A stretch of DNA of 19,821 nucleotides from Verrucomicrobiales bacterium (GTDB taxonomy: Bacteria; Verrucomicrobiota; Verrucomicrobiia; Verrucomicrobiales; DEV007), in the NCBI GenBank assembly GCA_023253615.1, contig JALRFZ010000095.1, forward strand, positions 1 to 19,821, written 5' to 3'. This document shows positions 1,962 through 19,821 of the stretch, one piece after another (positions within the stretch are counted from its first letter, which is position 1; the number at the start of each line of letters is the position of its first letter). A program made the translations under genes and the position numbers. Below the pieces are notes generated by a model that did no database searches, was not told the DNA's origin, and saw only the letters and a list, made by a program, of their open reading frames with translations.

Positions 1962-2639
1962 GTGGAAGATCACACCGTCATCGTCGGCTTCGGCGTCAAG
2001 GGCCGCTCCGCCGCCCGCATGCTGCTCGAGAGCGGGATCTCCCCCCTCTCGATCGTCGTGGTGAGCATGGACAAGTCCGCGGTGCAGGATGCCAACCGCA
2101 TGGGCCTGGCCGGCGTGCTCGGTGATGCACGCCGCGAGGATGTGCTGCGCGATGCCGCCACCGAGCGTGCGTCCAAGATCATCGTGGCGACCGACGAGGA
2201 CGACACGTCGGTCCTCGTCACCCTCACCGCGCGGCGCCTCGCACCCAAGGCCGAGATCGTCGCCGCCGCCCGCGAGGCGGCCACCGCCCAGATCCTGCGC
2301 CAGTCGGGCGCGAGCAGCGTCATCCCCACGGCGGAGTCGGCGGGTCACCTCATGGCGCTGTCGCTCATCTCCCCGGTGGCCGGCACCCTCATGGAGGACC
2401 TGCTCGACTCGGGCCGCGGGCTGGAGGTGATGCAGCGGCCCATCACCAAGGAGGAGCTCGGCATCTCCCCGACCGAGGTCGATAAGACGGGGGAGATCGT
2501 GCTGGCGGTTATTCGCGACGACGTCGTACACCGATTCGACACCAGCGATATCCGCATCCTGCAGAAGGGCGACCAGCTCGTCGTCATCCGCCACTCGGAG
2601 GGCAACGGCTACGGCGTCGCGCCGCCCCCGGAGTCCTGA
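1962..2639 (+). CDS. Potassium-channel regulatory subunit / ion channel RCK (TrkA-N and TrkA-C) domain, N-terminally truncated
   Basis: The product binds a nucleotide and gates a K+ channel or transporter. The peptide opens at once with a Rossmann strand and loop (TVIVGFGVKGRS, the GxGxxG motif of RCK/TrkA-N). It continues through the acidic strand end (IVVVSMD) and the GDARREDVLRDA segment typical of TrkA-N (to about residue 125). The last 75 residues, ending in a strand with KGDQLVVI, are the TrkA-C/RCK-C domain. In Actinobacteria this pair usually sits behind a two-helix pore of about 100 residues. No pore is present here: the upstream frame is open only back to a stop at 1920 and reads unrelated sequence. 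The GTG at 1962 is therefore a convenience start, and the gene is probably cut at the junction near 1955. The next gene begins one base after the stop, so the two are probably cotranscribed. Confidence 0.72.
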   Translation: MEDHTVIVGFGVKGRSAARMLLESGISPLSIVVVSMDKSAVQDANRMGLAGVLGDARREDVLRDAATERASKIIVATDEDDTSVLVTLTARRLAPKAEIVAAAREAATAQILRQSGASSVIPTAESAGHLMALSLISPVAGTLMEDLLDSGRGLEVMQRPITKEELGISPTEVDKTGEIVLAVIRDDVVHRFDTSDIRILQKGDQLVVIRHSEGNGYGVAPPPES

Positions 2640-2640
2640 C

Positions 2641-3618
2641 ATGCACGCCATCGTGGCCACCGTGCCCGGCGATGCCGACGTGTTGGCCTGGCAGGAAGTG
2701 CCCGATCCCGCCGCCGGGCCGGGAGAGGTCGTCGTCGAGGTGGCGGCGGCCGCGGTCAATCGAGCCGATGTGCTCCAGCGGCAGGGGCTGTATCCCCCGC
2801 CCCCGGGTGCCCCGGAGTGGCTCGGACTCGAGTGCTCAGGCACGGTCACCGAGATCGGCCCGGGAGTGACGTCGCTGTCGATGGGCGAGGAGGTGTGCTG
2901 CCTGCTGTCCGGGGGCGGGTACGCCGAGAGGGTGGCCGTGCCCGCGGGGCAGGCCATGTCGATCCCCCCCGGCATCGACCTCGTCACCGCCGCCGGACTG
3001 CCCGAGGTCGCGTGCACGGTGTGGTCCAACCTCGTGATGACAGCCCACCTCCAGCGCGGCGAGTGGCTGCTCGTGCACGGAGGCGGCAGCGGCATCGGCA
3101 CGATGGCCATCCAGGTCGCGCGCGCACTCGGTGCTCGCGTGGCGGTGACAGCCGGGTCCGCCGCCAAACTCGCCGCGTGCGAGGCACTCGGTGCCGAGGT
3201 CCTGATCAACTACCGCGACGAGGATTTCGTCGAGGTGATGGCGAGGGAGACCGGTGGCCGTGGTGTCGACGTGATCCTCGACAACATGGCGGCGAAGTAC
3301 CTCGAGCGCAACATCACCTCGCTCGCCCCGGGTGGCCGTCTCGTCGTCATCGGCATGCAGGGCGGTGTGAAGGCCGAGATCGACCTGGCCTCACTCCTGC
3401 GACGCAATGGCACCCTGCACGCGACCACCCTGCGCGGGCGCACGCCGGAGCAGAAGGCGGAGATCTGCGCTGAGGTGGAGCGTCACGTGTGGCCATGGAT
3501 CGCCGCGGGCATCGTCAAGCCCGTCATCGGCCGTGTCATGCCGCTCACGGATGCGGCCGACGCCCACCGTGCGCTGGAAGCCGGCGAGGTCACCGGCAAG
3601 ATCGTCCTCAGGCGCTGA
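2641..3618 (+). CDS. NAD(P)H quinone oxidoreductase, zinc-independent MDR family (PIG3/QOR type)
   Basis: The 325-residue length is normal for this family, which reduces quinones with NADPH in the cytoplasm. The N-terminal GroES-like domain shows NRADVLQRQGLYPPP and GLECSGTV. The cofactor domain has the Rossmann motif VHGGGSGIGTMAIQ (about residues 145-158), then the ALGA and INYRDEDF segments and LAPGGRLVVIG. The structural-zinc cysteines of alcohol dehydrogenases are not seen, as expected for the PIG3 branch. The start ATG lies one base after the stop of the channel gene, with GGAG about seven bases upstream, so this actinobacterial segment uses a normal ribosome-binding site, unlike the genes to the right. 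The 3' end overlaps the convergent HAD gene by 11 bases. The exact substrate cannot be told from sequence. Confidence 0.88.
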   Translation: MHAIVATVPGDADVLAWQEVPDPAAGPGEVVVEVAAAAVNRADVLQRQGLYPPPPGAPEWLGLECSGTVTEIGPGVTSLSMGEEVCCLLSGGGYAERVAVPAGQAMSIPPGIDLVTAAGLPEVACTVWSNLVMTAHLQRGEWLLVHGGGSGIGTMAIQVARALGARVAVTAGSAAKLAACEALGAEVLINYRDEDFVEVMARETGGRGVDVILDNMAAKYLERNITSLAPGGRLVVIGMQGGVKAEIDLASLLRRNGTLHATTLRGRTPEQKAEICAEVERHVWPWIAAGIVKPVIGRVMPLTDAADAHRALEAGEVTGKIVLRR

Positions 3619-3910
3619 AGCCGCGCGCCTGATCGTCGAGCACCGCGTCGATCAGATCGGCGACACCCTCGTCGTCATTGCTGGGCAGCACGTGCGTCGC
3701 GATGTCGAGCACCTCGGGGTGCCCATTGGCCATGGCGTAGGACGTCCCCGCCCACGCGAGCATCGGCAGGTCGTTGGGGCCGTCCCCCGCGGCCACGACA
3801 TGCAGTGGTCCGTGCCCCTCCCCGGCGGCCACGCGGGCCAGGGTGGTGGCCTTCGTCACTCCCGCGGCACTGAGCTCGATGAGTGAGTCGCCGTACCCGG
3901 AGTGCGTGAC
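3608..3910 (-). CDS. Cof-type HAD-superfamily phosphatase, C-terminal fragment
   Basis: About 100 residues of the C-terminus of a HAD hydrolase are present. Motif IV is intact (VVAAGDGPNDLPMLAWAG), preceded by a conserved LIELSAAGVTKATTLA stretch that contains the catalytic lysine of motif III. It is followed by the AMANGHPEVLDIA and ADLIDAVL segments typical of Cof/sugar-phosphate phosphatases. The nucleophile motif DxD and the cap domain are missing. The minus-strand frame stays open to base 4840, but beyond about 3913 it is antisense to glucose-6-phosphate dehydrogenase, so that extension is not protein. The gene is cut where the dehydrogenase is cut. It converges on and slightly overlaps the quinone oxidoreductase gene. 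The substrate is unknown. Confidence 0.75.
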   Translation of the reverse strand, partial: VTHSGYGDSLIELSAAGVTKATTLARVAAGEGHGPLHVVAAGDGPNDLPMLAWAGTSYAMANGHPEVLDIATHVLPSNDDEGVADLIDAVLDDQARGFSA

Positions 3911-16381: not shown

Positions 16382-17002
16382 ATGGCTCTTCACCTCGTCG
16401 ATCACCCCGTCATCCGTGAACGTCTCACCCGGATCCGCTCGATCACCTCGGGGACGTCGGAATTCCGCGAGGCCCTCCACGACGTCTCGCGTCTGCTCTG
16501 CTACGAGGTGACGCGTGATCTCGAGACCACGACCATCCCGGTGACGACACCTCTTTGCGAGACCACCGGTCATCGGCTCGCCCGTCCCGTCGTGCTCGTG
16601 CCCATCCTGCGGGCCGGGATGGGATTGCTCCAGGGTTTCACCGACATCCTCGGCGAGGCCTCCGTCGGCACGATCGGCCTCGCCCGCGATGAAAAAACCC
16701 TCGCGCCGCACCGCTACCATTTCCGCATGCCTCCCGCCCTGGATGAGGCCGAGGTGATCCTCATCGATCCCATGCTCGCGACCGGTGGCAGCGCCGGCGA
16801 TGCCATCGATGAGTTGAAGCGCGAAGGCGCCACGCGGCTCCGTTTCGCCTGTCTCATCGCCGCGCCCGAAGGTGTCGCCGCATTCACGACACGGCATCCC
16901 GACGTGCCCGTCTACGCCGCCGCCCTCGACCAATGCCTCGACGAACGTGCCTACATCGTTCCCGGTCTGGGCGATGCGGGAGATCGATACTTCGGGACGT
17001 GA
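16382..17002 (+). CDS. upp: Uracil phosphoribosyltransferase
   Basis: UPRT makes UMP from uracil and PRPP, the salvage step for free uracil in the cytoplasm. The 206-residue length is normal. The marks are the N-terminal [13 protein letters not shown], the [17 protein letters not shown] helix region (residues 69-85), the PRPP loop [15 protein letters not shown] (127-141), and the uracil-binding tail [16 protein letters not shown] at the C-terminus. The ATG at 16382 is the natural start; GGGGG about five bases before it is the only weak ribosome-binding signal among the neighbouring genes. It follows the secreted hydrolase and peptidase genes by 45 bases on the same strand, which fits a salvage role for bases released outside the cell. 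No uraA-type permease is visible. Confidence 0.96.
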
Positions 17003-17015
17003 CGTAACCGGTCGT

Positions 17016-17159
17016 GTGAAATTGAAACGCGACTTCCCCGTCAAAATCTGTCCCGTCTGCCAGCGGCCCTTCGCCTGGCGGAGGAAGTGGGCGCGCTGTT
17101 GGGAGGAAGTGCGCTACTGCTCCGAAAAATGCCGCCGCCACCGTGGGTCGGTGTCGTAA
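17016..17159 (+). CDS. DUF2256 zinc-ribbon mini-protein
   Basis: This is a 47-residue protein starting with GTG at 17016, 13 bases after upp. It matches the DUF2256 pattern: a CPVCxRPFxWRxKWxxxWExVxYCSxKCRR core. Here CPVC lies at residues 12-15 and YCSEKC near residues 35-40, giving four cysteines for one zinc ion. Family members are usually 40-60 residues. DUF2256 genes recur next to, or fused to, photolyase/cryptochrome-like genes, and here the very next gene, nine bases downstream, is such a flavoprotein. The GTG start is chosen because family members begin a few basic residues before the first CxxC. Function is unknown; a role in DNA contact or as a partner of the flavoprotein is inference. 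Confidence 0.85.
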
Positions 17160-17167
17160 CAGGGCTC

Positions 17168-18352
17168 GTGTCCGCGTTTCTCCCCAACACCCGGTCCGAA
17201 GCCCTCGCCCGCCTCGAGGCCTTCCTTCCCATCGCGTCCGACTACGGCGCGAGTCGGAACCACGTCGTGCCCGGACACCCAAACGTCTCGCGCCTCTCTC
17301 CCGCCACCCGCACCCGCGGAATCCTCGAGAGCGAGATCCTCGCCGCCGCCCGCATGCAGTACGCGCCTGAGGTGATCGAAAAATTCGAGCAGGAAGTCTG
17401 GTGGCGGCTCTACTGGAAAGGCTGGCTCGAACAGCGGCCCGAGATCTGGACAGGGTATCGCGAGGCACTGAACCCTCTTCGGTGGAGCGACCGTGCCCGC
17501 GCGGTGACCGCAGGGGAAAGCGGCATCGCCATCCTCGATCATTTCACCCGCGAACTCATCGCCACCGGCTACCTCCACAACCACGCCCGGATGTGGTGGG
17601 CCTCCTGGTGGATCCACGGCGAAGGGCTCCCCTGGGAGCTCGGGGCGCATTTCTTCCTGCAACACCTCCGCGACGGCGATGCCGCCTCCAACACCCTCTC
17701 CTGGCGCTGGGTCGCGGGACTTCACACCAAGGGCAAAGCCTACCTCGTGCGCCGGTCGAATCTCGAGCGGTATGTCGCGGCCGATCTGCTCGCGGAGCAT
17801 GGAGACGGATTGGAAAGGCTCGAATCGGTCGAGGTCCGGTCTTTGCCGTGGCAGGACCCTTCACCGCCTCTCCGGGTCTGCGCCGCCGACCCCGAACCCG
17901 GCACGCGCAGCGGGATCTGGATTCACGACGAGGATCTCTCCGTGGAGCGATCGCCCCTGTCCGGGCTTTCTCCCGCCGCGATCCTTGCCACCGCTCCGGC
18001 CGGGCTGTGGGAGCGAGAGGCCTATTCGCCTGACAAACGCACCTTTCTCCACACCGCCCTCGCCGATGGGGCCGAGCGGGCCGCGGCTCATTTCCGCGTC
18101 CCGGGTGAGACCCTGGACGCCCGCGATCTCGCGGATGCCCTCGTGGCATGGGCCGGACGGGAGCGGCTCGATACCGTCGTTGCCCTCGCACCCTTCACCG
18201 GTCCGCTCGCCGATGAAGTCCCCGGCCTCGCCGCCGCCCTCGGCCACCGCGGCGTCCGGCTGAATCTCGTGCGCCGGCCCGAGGATGTGATCGTGATGAA
18301 TCGTGCGACGGGCGGGTTTTTCGGGTTTTGGGAGAGGGTGCGGGGGAGGTGA
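17168..18352 (+). CDS. Photolyase/cryptochrome-like FAD-binding protein with reversed domain order
   Basis: Counting from GTG 17168 it has 394 residues; ATG 17129 is an alternative that would overlap the DUF2256 gene. Residues about 25-205 are the photolyase FAD-binding domain: SRLSPATRTRGILESEIL, VWWRLYWKGW (R-x-x-YW), ATGYLHNHARMWWASWW (the TGxxHNRxRM motif) and DGDAASNTLSWRWVAG (the DxDxxxN motif). Normal photolyases carry an alpha/beta antenna domain before this. Here none precedes it. Instead residues about 240-394 form an alpha/beta-like C-terminal part (RAAAHFRV, LDTVVALAPFTGPLADEVPGLAAALGHRGV) ending in GFFGFWERV. Repair activity is not established for this branch. It forms an operon with the DUF2256 gene. 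The start is uncertain. Confidence 0.83.
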   Translation: MSAFLPNTRSEALARLEAFLPIASDYGASRNHVVPGHPNVSRLSPATRTRGILESEILAAARMQYAPEVIEKFEQEVWWRLYWKGWLEQRPEIWTGYREALNPLRWSDRARAVTAGESGIAILDHFTRELIATGYLHNHARMWWASWWIHGEGLPWELGAHFFLQHLRDGDAASNTLSWRWVAGLHTKGKAYLVRRSNLERYVAADLLAEHGDGLERLESVEVRSLPWQDPSPPLRVCAADPEPGTRSGIWIHDEDLSVERSPLSGLSPAAILATAPAGLWEREAYSPDKRTFLHTALADGAERAAAHFRVPGETLDARDLADALVAWAGRERLDTVVALAPFTGPLADEVPGLAAALGHRGVRLNLVRRPEDVIVMNRATGGFFGFWERVRGR

Positions 18353-18484: not shown

Positions 18485-18691
18485 TCAGAGCTCGTCTTCG
18501 GAGATAGGGATCAACTTCATCAGGCTCCGCTGGAGACCGACCTTGAGCGTCTTGTTGCCGTGAATGGGAATCACCACCCGCTCAATCCTTCCATCCATCG
18601 TGTAGACGTGGTGACTCCCGTTGATCCTCGCGAGCGTCCATCCCTTTGACTCCGCGAGCCTGGCCATCCGACGGCCTGTCACGGCCTTCAT
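18485..18691 (-). CDS. hicA: HicA-family mRNA interferase toxin
   Basis: This is a 68-residue protein of the HicA dsRBD-like fold, normally a translation-independent mRNA endonuclease. The signature elements are MARLAESKGWTL (first helix and strand), GSHHVYT (residues 25-31, containing the catalytic histidine), and VVIPIHGNKTLKVGLQRSLMKLI (second strand and helix). It follows the antitoxin gene with a 4-base ATGA overlap (18688-18691), so the toxin is made only by readthrough from the antitoxin. All key features of a working toxin are present. Antitoxin first, toxin second is the order of part of the family; in many other loci it is reversed. Confidence 0.88.
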   Translation of the reverse strand: MKAVTGRRMARLAESKGWTLARINGSHHVYTMDGRIERVVIPIHGNKTLKVGLQRSLMKLIPISEDEL

Positions 18692-18888
18692 ACCGCCAAC
18701 TCAAGGATCTCGTCAGGAGCGGATACGATTTCAGCCTCGCCTGCGGACAGCCACCCCACGATCGCCTCTTGAAGGTTCGCCTCCAGTTCCTCCCGCGTGT
18801 CACCCTGAGTGACGCATCCCGGGAGGGCAGGAACCTCTGCCCAGAATCCGCCCTCTTCGGCGACGTGAATGATCGCTTTCAGCTTCAT
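18688..18888 (-). CDS. hicB: HicB-family antitoxin
   Basis: The 66-residue product has the HicB RNase-H-like core: KLKAIIHVAEEGGFWAEVPALPGCVTQGDTREELEANL in outline (strand, GGF-x-A-x-VP-x-LPGC, then G-T/D-T-x-E-E helix). It ends soon after the helix, so there is no C-terminal DNA-binding domain. Longer HicB proteins carry a ribbon-helix-helix or HTH domain for autorepression. Here repression, if any, would need another route. The ATG at 18888 is chosen because it starts the family pattern; codons upstream are open but show no similarity. No Shine-Dalgarno sequence is visible. It sits upstream of hicA with an overlap. Confidence 0.87.
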   Translation of the reverse strand: MKLKAIIHVAEEGGFWAEVPALPGCVTQGDTREELEANLQEAIVGWLSAGEAEIVSAPDEILELAV

Positions 18889-19413: not shown

Positions 19414-19821
19414 ATGGAAAACGTCATCATCATCGGAACCGGCTGCGCCGGTTGGACCGCCGCGATCTACACGGCCCGCGCCAACCTGCGGCCTCTCGTC
19501 ATTTCCGGTGAACAGCCCGGCGGCCAGCTCACGACGACGACGGAAGTGGAAAATTTCCCCGGTTTCCCCGAAGGCGTCATGGGCCCGGACCTGATGATGC
19601 GGATGCAGCAGCAGGCGGAGAAATTCGGCACCCGCGTCGAATACGACCGCGTCGAGAGCATCGCGAAGCAGGAGGACGGCAGCATCCTCCTCAAGACCTC
19701 GGGCGGCACCGAATACCGCGCCCACACCGTGATCGTCGCCACCGGCGCGAGCCCGCGCCACCTCGGCCTGCCGAACGAGAAGGAACTCGTCGGACGCGGA
19801 CTCACCTCCTGCGCCACCTGC
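19414..19821 (+). CDS. trxB: Thioredoxin reductase, N-terminal part, runs off the window
   Basis: TrxB passes electrons from NADPH through FAD to thioredoxin in the cytoplasm. The 136 visible residues start at ATG 19414 with the FAD-binding fold ENVIIIGTGCAGWTAAIYTARA. GTGCAG stands where Escherichia coli has GSGPAG, still a GxGxxG/A dinucleotide-binding loop. Next come the flavin contacts PGGQLTTTTEVENFPGFPEG and the second FAD motif VIVATGASPRHLGLP. The window ends exactly on the redox-active CATC, the canonical CxxC of the family, so both cysteines are present but the NADPH domain continues outside. No stop is reached. Start chosen from the family N-terminus; no Shine-Dalgarno sequence upstream. 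Confidence 0.94.
   Translation, partial: MENVIIIGTGCAGWTAAIYTARANLRPLVISGEQPGGQLTTTTEVENFPGFPEGVMGPDLMMRMQQQAEKFGTRVEYDRVESIAKQEDGSILLKTSGGTEYRAHTVIVATGASPRHLGLPNEKELVGRGLTSCATC

Follow-up and report, generated by a model that had tools for sequence, protein, structure and literature searches.

Genomic context links the small, probably zinc-binding protein DUF2256 to the bacterial photolyases as a whole, and in the 19,821-nucleotide stretch of DNA analysed here (the window) its gene directly precedes that of a flavoprotein of the NewPHL, or short photolyase-like (SPL), class. The preferred reading, on balance probable as a whole but much less sure for the role of DUF2256, is that of a NewPHL photolyase with a helper shared by several photolyases. 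A shared helper is preferred over a dedicated subunit because DUF2256 is found beside several photolyase classes and 16 of 50 NewPHL genomes searched whole do without it. Photolyases are textbook single-protein enzymes. The point of interest is the zinc ribbon that accompanies several photolyase classes, the flavoprotein being a further member of a published class, and the photolyase link offers a testable function for DUF2256 as a frequent small-protein family.

Genes of the window

The genes and domains under discussion are as follows.

16382..17002, + strand, uracil phosphoribosyltransferase (upp), 13 bases 5' of the DUF2256 gene
17016..17159, + strand, DUF2256 (PF10013) mini zinc-ribbon, 47 aa, GTG start
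17168..18352, + strand, NewPHL/SPL-type flavoprotein, 394 aa, GTG start at 17168
17168..17857, + strand, helical FAD-binding catalytic domain (flavoprotein residues 1-230)
17909..18349, + strand, C-terminal alpha/beta domain (flavoprotein residues 248-394), five strands by the secondary structure of the model
18485-18888, - strand, HicA toxin / HicB-like antitoxin pair (PF07927, 53.2 bits; PF15919, 31.2 bits)
19414..19821, + strand, first part of a thioredoxin-reductase-like gene (PF07992) that runs past the window end

Both genes, for the 47-aa DUF2256 and the 394-aa flavoprotein, are confirmed as genuine, and the four-Cys protein that the preliminary description had placed 8 bases ahead of the flavoprotein is found as claimed. 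The 8-base gap holds given the GTG start at 17168; an alternative in-frame ATG at 17129, which is the annotated start in several close flavoprotein homologues among the matches listed, would result in a 31-base overlap with the DUF2256 gene. The two genes are probably co-transcribed. The RNA gene search reported no RNA genes within the window.

The flavoprotein as a member of the NewPHL/SPL class

In the Pfam profile search the sole match of the window flavoprotein is the photolyase FAD domain PF03441 (68.6 bits, residues 74-192); the antenna domain PF00875 is absent, and PF04244, the family of the prokaryotic 6-4 photolyases (FeS-BCP), gave no match. The AlphaFold2 model (pLDDT 96.8) predicts the photolyase FAD catalytic fold first and the alpha/beta domain last, with C-terminal strands at residues 248-253, 271-276, 313-317, 336-340 and 364-368, so that the reversed domain order originally proposed is borne out. 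In comparison to class I CPD photolyases (A. nidulans 1owl, E. coli 1dnp), the protein has no PF00875 in front and its catalytic domain corresponds to the latter half of class I chains only. Photolyases of solved structure, searched by sequence, align with the catalytic half alone, and the VIA list for the flavoprotein covers residues 1-230. Full-length relatives of the same family are found in Tabrizicola, in Asticcacaulis and, at 36% identity over 98% cover, in Ruegeria sp. TM1040.

Mapping onto 1owl assigned the CPD contacts (E76=E283, W79=W286, N138=N349, M142=M353, W181=W392), the FAD residues (D169=D380, D171=D382, N175=N386) and the electron-relay Trp next to FAD (W179=W390). All of the mapped residues are invariant in an alignment of 93 sequences; the FAD contacts, on the loss or retention of which the preliminary description had staked its reading, are therefore retained.

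NewPHL and SPL proteins are reportedly those of Emmerich et al. 2020 and Xu et al. 2021, and characterised members of the class include those of D. shibae and M. mesophilicum. The window protein is like them in its N-terminal FAD catalytic domain, C-terminal alpha/beta domain, lack of an N-terminal antenna domain and conserved mapped CPD contacts, and no distinguishing feature was found in a comparison with the class description. Judged from its sequence, the flavoprotein appears to be an ordinary, intact-looking member of the class in a Verrucomicrobiota-like genome. As the class is already in print in the accessible text of three papers (PMC13274461, PMC9178010, PMC9498864), an undescribed domain-swapped family was rejected.

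The DUF2256 protein

The 47-aa protein belongs to DUF2256 (75.4 bits against a Pfam cut-off of 25) and is strongly basic (pI 10.3). Over 53 aligned sequences of the family P8, K10, C12, C15, W21, R22, W25, W29, V32, C35, S36 and C39 are invariant, all four Cys being among these positions. Its layout, CX2C followed by a YCSx2C-like pair, is like that of the TRASH-clan zinc ribbons (DUF329/YacG, FCS and MYND fingers), from which it differs by its own invariant W21-R22, W25, W29 motif. Solved structures searched by sequence gave nothing significant for DUF2256, and the moderately confident model (pLDDT 80, pTM 0.49) has as its best fold matches YacG (4tma_J; a gyrase inhibitor, presumably the same as DUF329), the FCS finger (2w0t) and L24e-type proteins, all weak and with E > 1. 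These matches agree with, and do not prove, the placement of DUF2256 in the TRASH clan beside MYND, FCS fingers and DUF329 that is given in the accessible part of PMC4047054.

In the open-access literature searched COG4338, presumably the COG of DUF2256, is nowhere mentioned, and searches for a photolyase operon, for a 6-4 enzyme with a zinc-finger neighbour, for a photolyase accessory or zinc-ribbon protein or for NewPHL together with DUF2256 found nothing relevant. Two papers name DUF2256 (PMC11796252, PMC4047054), and neither links it to photolyases in the text available from them; the former, in that text, lists it among domains frequent in bacterial proteins up to 50 aa.

DUF2256 beside photolyases of several classes

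Neighbourhoods were collected from the side of DUF2256 in three samples centred on it (phylum, Alphaproteobacteria and Gammaproteobacteria), none selected for NewPHL except in the centre genomes; 3 of the 64 DUF2256 genes, the window's and those of two centre genomes, are thus non-random. A photolyase lies within 400 bp of 36 of the 64; both gene orders occur, and 33 of the 36 pairs share a strand. Per sample the counts are 8/17 in the phylum, 18/30 in Alphaproteobacteria, where a locus was available for 30 of the 35 matches, and 10/17 in Gammaproteobacteria; among the five alphaproteobacterial matches outside the 30, four (G251, G313, G347, G370) lie near a photolyase by coordinates. The chance rate of such adjacency would be well under 1%, there being few photolyase genes among thousands. 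The partners fall into at least four classes when called with profiles made for this analysis from 1 to 8 sequences each: PF04244-type (FeS-BCP/6-4), an unassigned two-domain photolyase (PF00875 + PF03441; three scanned examples fall below every NCBIfam cut-off), class I and NewPHL. This variety of partners is at odds with the preliminary description's dedicated subunit, as is the finding that NewPHL is the partner in 1 of the 36 photolyase-adjacent cases, the window's own.

The remaining 28 of the 64 have no photolyase within 400 bp, and a reading that would account for many non-photolyase neighbours is co-regulation only, in which a light or UV stress regulon would contain both DUF2256 and photolyases, DUF2256 making no contact with them and being perhaps a regulator, a metal-handling or an RNA-acting protein. 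This reading is a serious contender, if somewhat short of an even chance. It is consistent with TIGR01777-type oxidoreductases beside DUF2256 in 5 of 17 phylum loci, with an SOS-response-associated peptidase gene after DUF2256 on a Thioclava plasmid, and with a Cupriavidus plasmid on which the order is DUF2256, PF04244-type photolyase, excinuclease Cho and TIGR01777. The LitR light regulon of P. putida and P. mendocina also fits, as it is said in the accessible text of PMC9758184 to hold PhrB, CryB and several uncharacterised genes. However, close photolyase adjacency that is mostly same-strand, occurs in both orders and extends over three clades is tighter than a broad regulon needs. Between a shared helper with contact and co-regulation without contact, the two are about equally likely.

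As a separate observation, in the five phylum loci with the TIGR01777-type / DUF1731 oxidoreductase (L029, L030, L034, L036, L038) its gene is directly 3' of DUF2256, and three of the five have a PF04244-type and a class I photolyase upstream.

DUF2256 is also carried on plasmids: of 72,556 records in the plasmid collection 134 have a match, with Pantoea (57) and Acinetobacter (13) leading, whereas the phage collection gave none. In 12 plasmid regions picked from the 134 records it lies beside a photolyase in 5 and not in 7; on plasmids of Acinetobacter piscicola and Rhizobium tumorigenes the order is photolyase then DUF2256, with DUF2256 in the former standing between the photolyase and TIGR03643.

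Pairing around NewPHL genes

A scan of GTDB species genomes yielded at least 597 stretches, 588 of these 597 encoding a relative, and the best 80 were taken as named loci. The recurrent pairing claimed at the outset is real: 13 of these 80 have a DUF2256 gene no more than 250 bp from NewPHL and on its strand, seven times upstream (L045-L049, L054, L092) and six times downstream (L069, L071-L073, L079, L107). Three further loci (L060, L090, L091) have DUF2256 1.6 to 3.1 kb away, and the other 64 have none in the available flank, which is short in some. A thioredoxin-reductase-like gene lies directly 3' of NewPHL in the six closest paired loci among the 80. In a quick tree of 86 NewPHLs, with the short L113 left out, the window falls in an eight-member clade (SH-aLRT 99) in which DUF2256 is directly upstream in seven, the window included. 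Adjacency changes at least seven times over this tree, so the pair has been repeatedly formed or broken.

Such same-strand pairing in both orders would suit a subunit dedicated to NewPHL, as first proposed, yet this is now very improbable and, as an exclusive role, largely refuted. When 50 of the 64 flank-negative loci were searched through their whole genomes (among the 14 omitted, L100 shares its genome with L097), 34 genomes carry DUF2256 elsewhere and 16 are without it. Two of the 16 come from isolates (Curtobacterium luteum NS184, Asticcacaulis sp. AC402); the remaining 14 are labelled as metagenome bins, where absence counts for little. Plasmid NewPHL regions of Ruegeria sp. TM1040 and Asticcacaulis excentricus likewise have no DUF2256 (0/2). 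Among 30 DUF2256 loci from NewPHL-bearing genomes in which the two are not directly paired, nine adjoin another photolyase class.

The DUF2256 sequences that adjoin NewPHL are in addition hardly distinct, with a mean identity of 0.68 among themselves versus 0.64 to others. Within the verrucomicrobial set the closest DUF2256 relative has the same partner class in 10 of 21 cases against a shuffle mean of 4.0 (p 0.01), which would speak for dedication, though relatedness alone could produce it. The same test, which ignores kinship, gave p 0.26 in Alphaproteobacteria and p 0.026 in Gammaproteobacteria; given this mixed outcome, with two of three sets somewhat above the shuffles, partner-specific DUF2256 subfamilies were not adopted.

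An unassigned two-domain photolyase was also seen near NewPHL in ten loci (L057, L069, L071, L072, L082, L091, L092, L113, L119, L121), with DUF2256 between or beside them in some.

Co-occurrence across genomes

Genomes were counted in the phylum (194), in Alphaproteobacteria, the class of Tabrizicola (142), and in Gammaproteobacteria, the class of a Lysobacteraceae bin (143). DUF2256 was counted above the cut-off, sub-cut-off matches being dropped beforehand (two in G175, one in G420). In the phylum NewPHL was defined by E 1e-30 to the window protein, and the 13 alphaproteobacterial NewPHL were chosen by the shape of the PF03441 match and then profile-confirmed. All Fisher tests and phi values take no account of relatedness. 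The phylum totals are 17 genomes for DUF2256, 60 for PF03441, 30 for PF04244 and 9 for NewPHL, the last three overlapping DUF2256 in 17, 15 and 8 (phi 0.46, 0.62 and 0.63, kinship ignored). Alphaproteobacteria gave 35, 87, 37 and 13, with overlaps of 34, 32 and 13 (phi 0.42, 0.85 and 0.56, kinship again ignored), and Gammaproteobacteria gave 17 for DUF2256, 25 for PF04244 and 13 for both (phi 0.57).

The check on co-occurrence suggested in the preliminary description thus came out in its favour, as DUF2256 is present in 8 of 9 phylum NewPHL genomes (window included) and in all 13 alphaproteobacterial ones (centre genome included), which also accords with a dedicated subunit. In the other direction, NewPHL was not detected in 22 of the 35 alphaproteobacterial DUF2256 genomes, and an exclusive subunit, which should keep to genomes with NewPHL, was rejected. 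What stands of the first interpretation is therefore the domain order, the residues, the pairing and the co-occurrence, while "undescribed" and "dedicated subunit" do not. Each of the 35 alphaproteobacterial carriers has one DUF2256 match; so has the window's genome, which holds PF04244 on two other contigs and further PF03441 on two.

These counts raise another reading, in which the prokaryotic 6-4 photolyases (PF04244, FeS-BCP) are the primary partners of DUF2256, which stands next to NewPHL only secondarily; this is possible, though on balance doubtful. PF04244 has the tightest co-occurrence, shared by 32 of 35 DUF2256 and 32 of 37 PF04244 genomes in Alphaproteobacteria, is present in 15 of 17 phylum and 13 of 17 gammaproteobacterial DUF2256 genomes, and supplies the neighbour in all 10 photolyase-adjacent gammaproteobacterial loci. 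In 14 control genomes DUF2256 was found in two (Caulobacter vibrioides, Synechococcus elongatus), both with PF04244, which occurs in three. According to PMC9178010, Synechococcus elongatus PCC 7942 carries class I, 6-4 and SPL photolyase genes. Against this reading, DUF2256 is missing from 15 of 30 phylum and 12 of 25 gammaproteobacterial PF04244 genomes, nine DUF2256 genomes over the three samples are without PF04244, and in the phylum the phi values for PF04244 and NewPHL are near equal.

Habitat was controlled for in Alphaproteobacteria by rhodopsin (PF01036), which was present in 10 genomes, nine with DUF2256 (phi 0.42) and seven with NewPHL (phi 0.58). Sunlit habitat is on this account a real confounder, and the nine of ten carriers also favour co-regulation. 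Outside the rhodopsin genomes the phi of DUF2256 with PF04244 is 0.84, and that with NewPHL drops to 0.44.

Fusion searches

The search for fusions, also suggested at the outset, produced no genuine DUF2256-photolyase fusion within its narrow limits, which rare fusions could escape. PF10013 was found in none of the 120 flavoprotein homologues listed of 7055, and a search for DUF2256 among proteins about 300-950 aa long had three candidates, none of which matched. Proteins of about 160-520 aa gave four matches: two DUF2256-DUF6134 proteins, one without a second domain, and P0124, which combines PF10013 with PF03441. The last was rejected as a fusion: it appears to join a two-domain photolyase whose reading frame is broken to a DUF2256 that comes after it, and it does not really resemble the flavoprotein of the window. 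Apart from photolyases, DUF2256 and DUF6134 share a reading frame in one alphaproteobacterial genome (L178, 763-1650, - strand), and the same architecture occurs in Tistrella mobilis.

Proposed mechanism and significance

Under the preferred reading of a NewPHL photolyase with a shared helper, the flavoprotein would use blue light to transfer an electron from FADH- onto the cyclobutane dimer, which would thereby be split; the substrate would be single-stranded DNA, as reported for the NewPHL class, and the C-terminal alpha/beta domain may close over the FAD. Much less surely, DUF2256 may be a small basic treble-clef protein of the TRASH clan with one Zn held on its four Cys. It could serve several photolyases in one cell, most likely via DNA or photolyase-surface binding through WRKKWxRxW.

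A more far-reaching proposal, unlikely but worth stating, is that DUF2256 assists bacterial photolyases in general: a zinc ribbon of 45 residues that would serve chiefly the prokaryotic 6-4 (PF04244) enzymes, and with them NewPHL and the unassigned two-domain class, it would aid in finding or holding the lesion (or in maintaining the reduced flavin) and be required for full photoreactivation. If true, a small conserved protein tracking several photolyase classes in three clades would be the first general helper of light repair.

Other features of the window

Uracil phosphoribosyltransferase, encoded just upstream of the pair, gave no tblastn match (E 1e-8) across the best 80 named NewPHL loci. 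On the other side, the HicA/HicB pair separates the NewPHL gene from the thioredoxin-reductase-like gene and resembles an insertion into a conserved neighbourhood. A possible chimeric join is seen at about 3600-3910 of the window, where the C-terminal part of a minus-strand HAD-hydrolase abuts a glucose-6-phosphate dehydrogenase frame comprising the C-terminal domain alone (PF02781 1-296). The third-position GC of the genes at 1962-3615 is 0.88-0.92, versus 0.78-0.81 for upp, DUF2256 and NewPHL.
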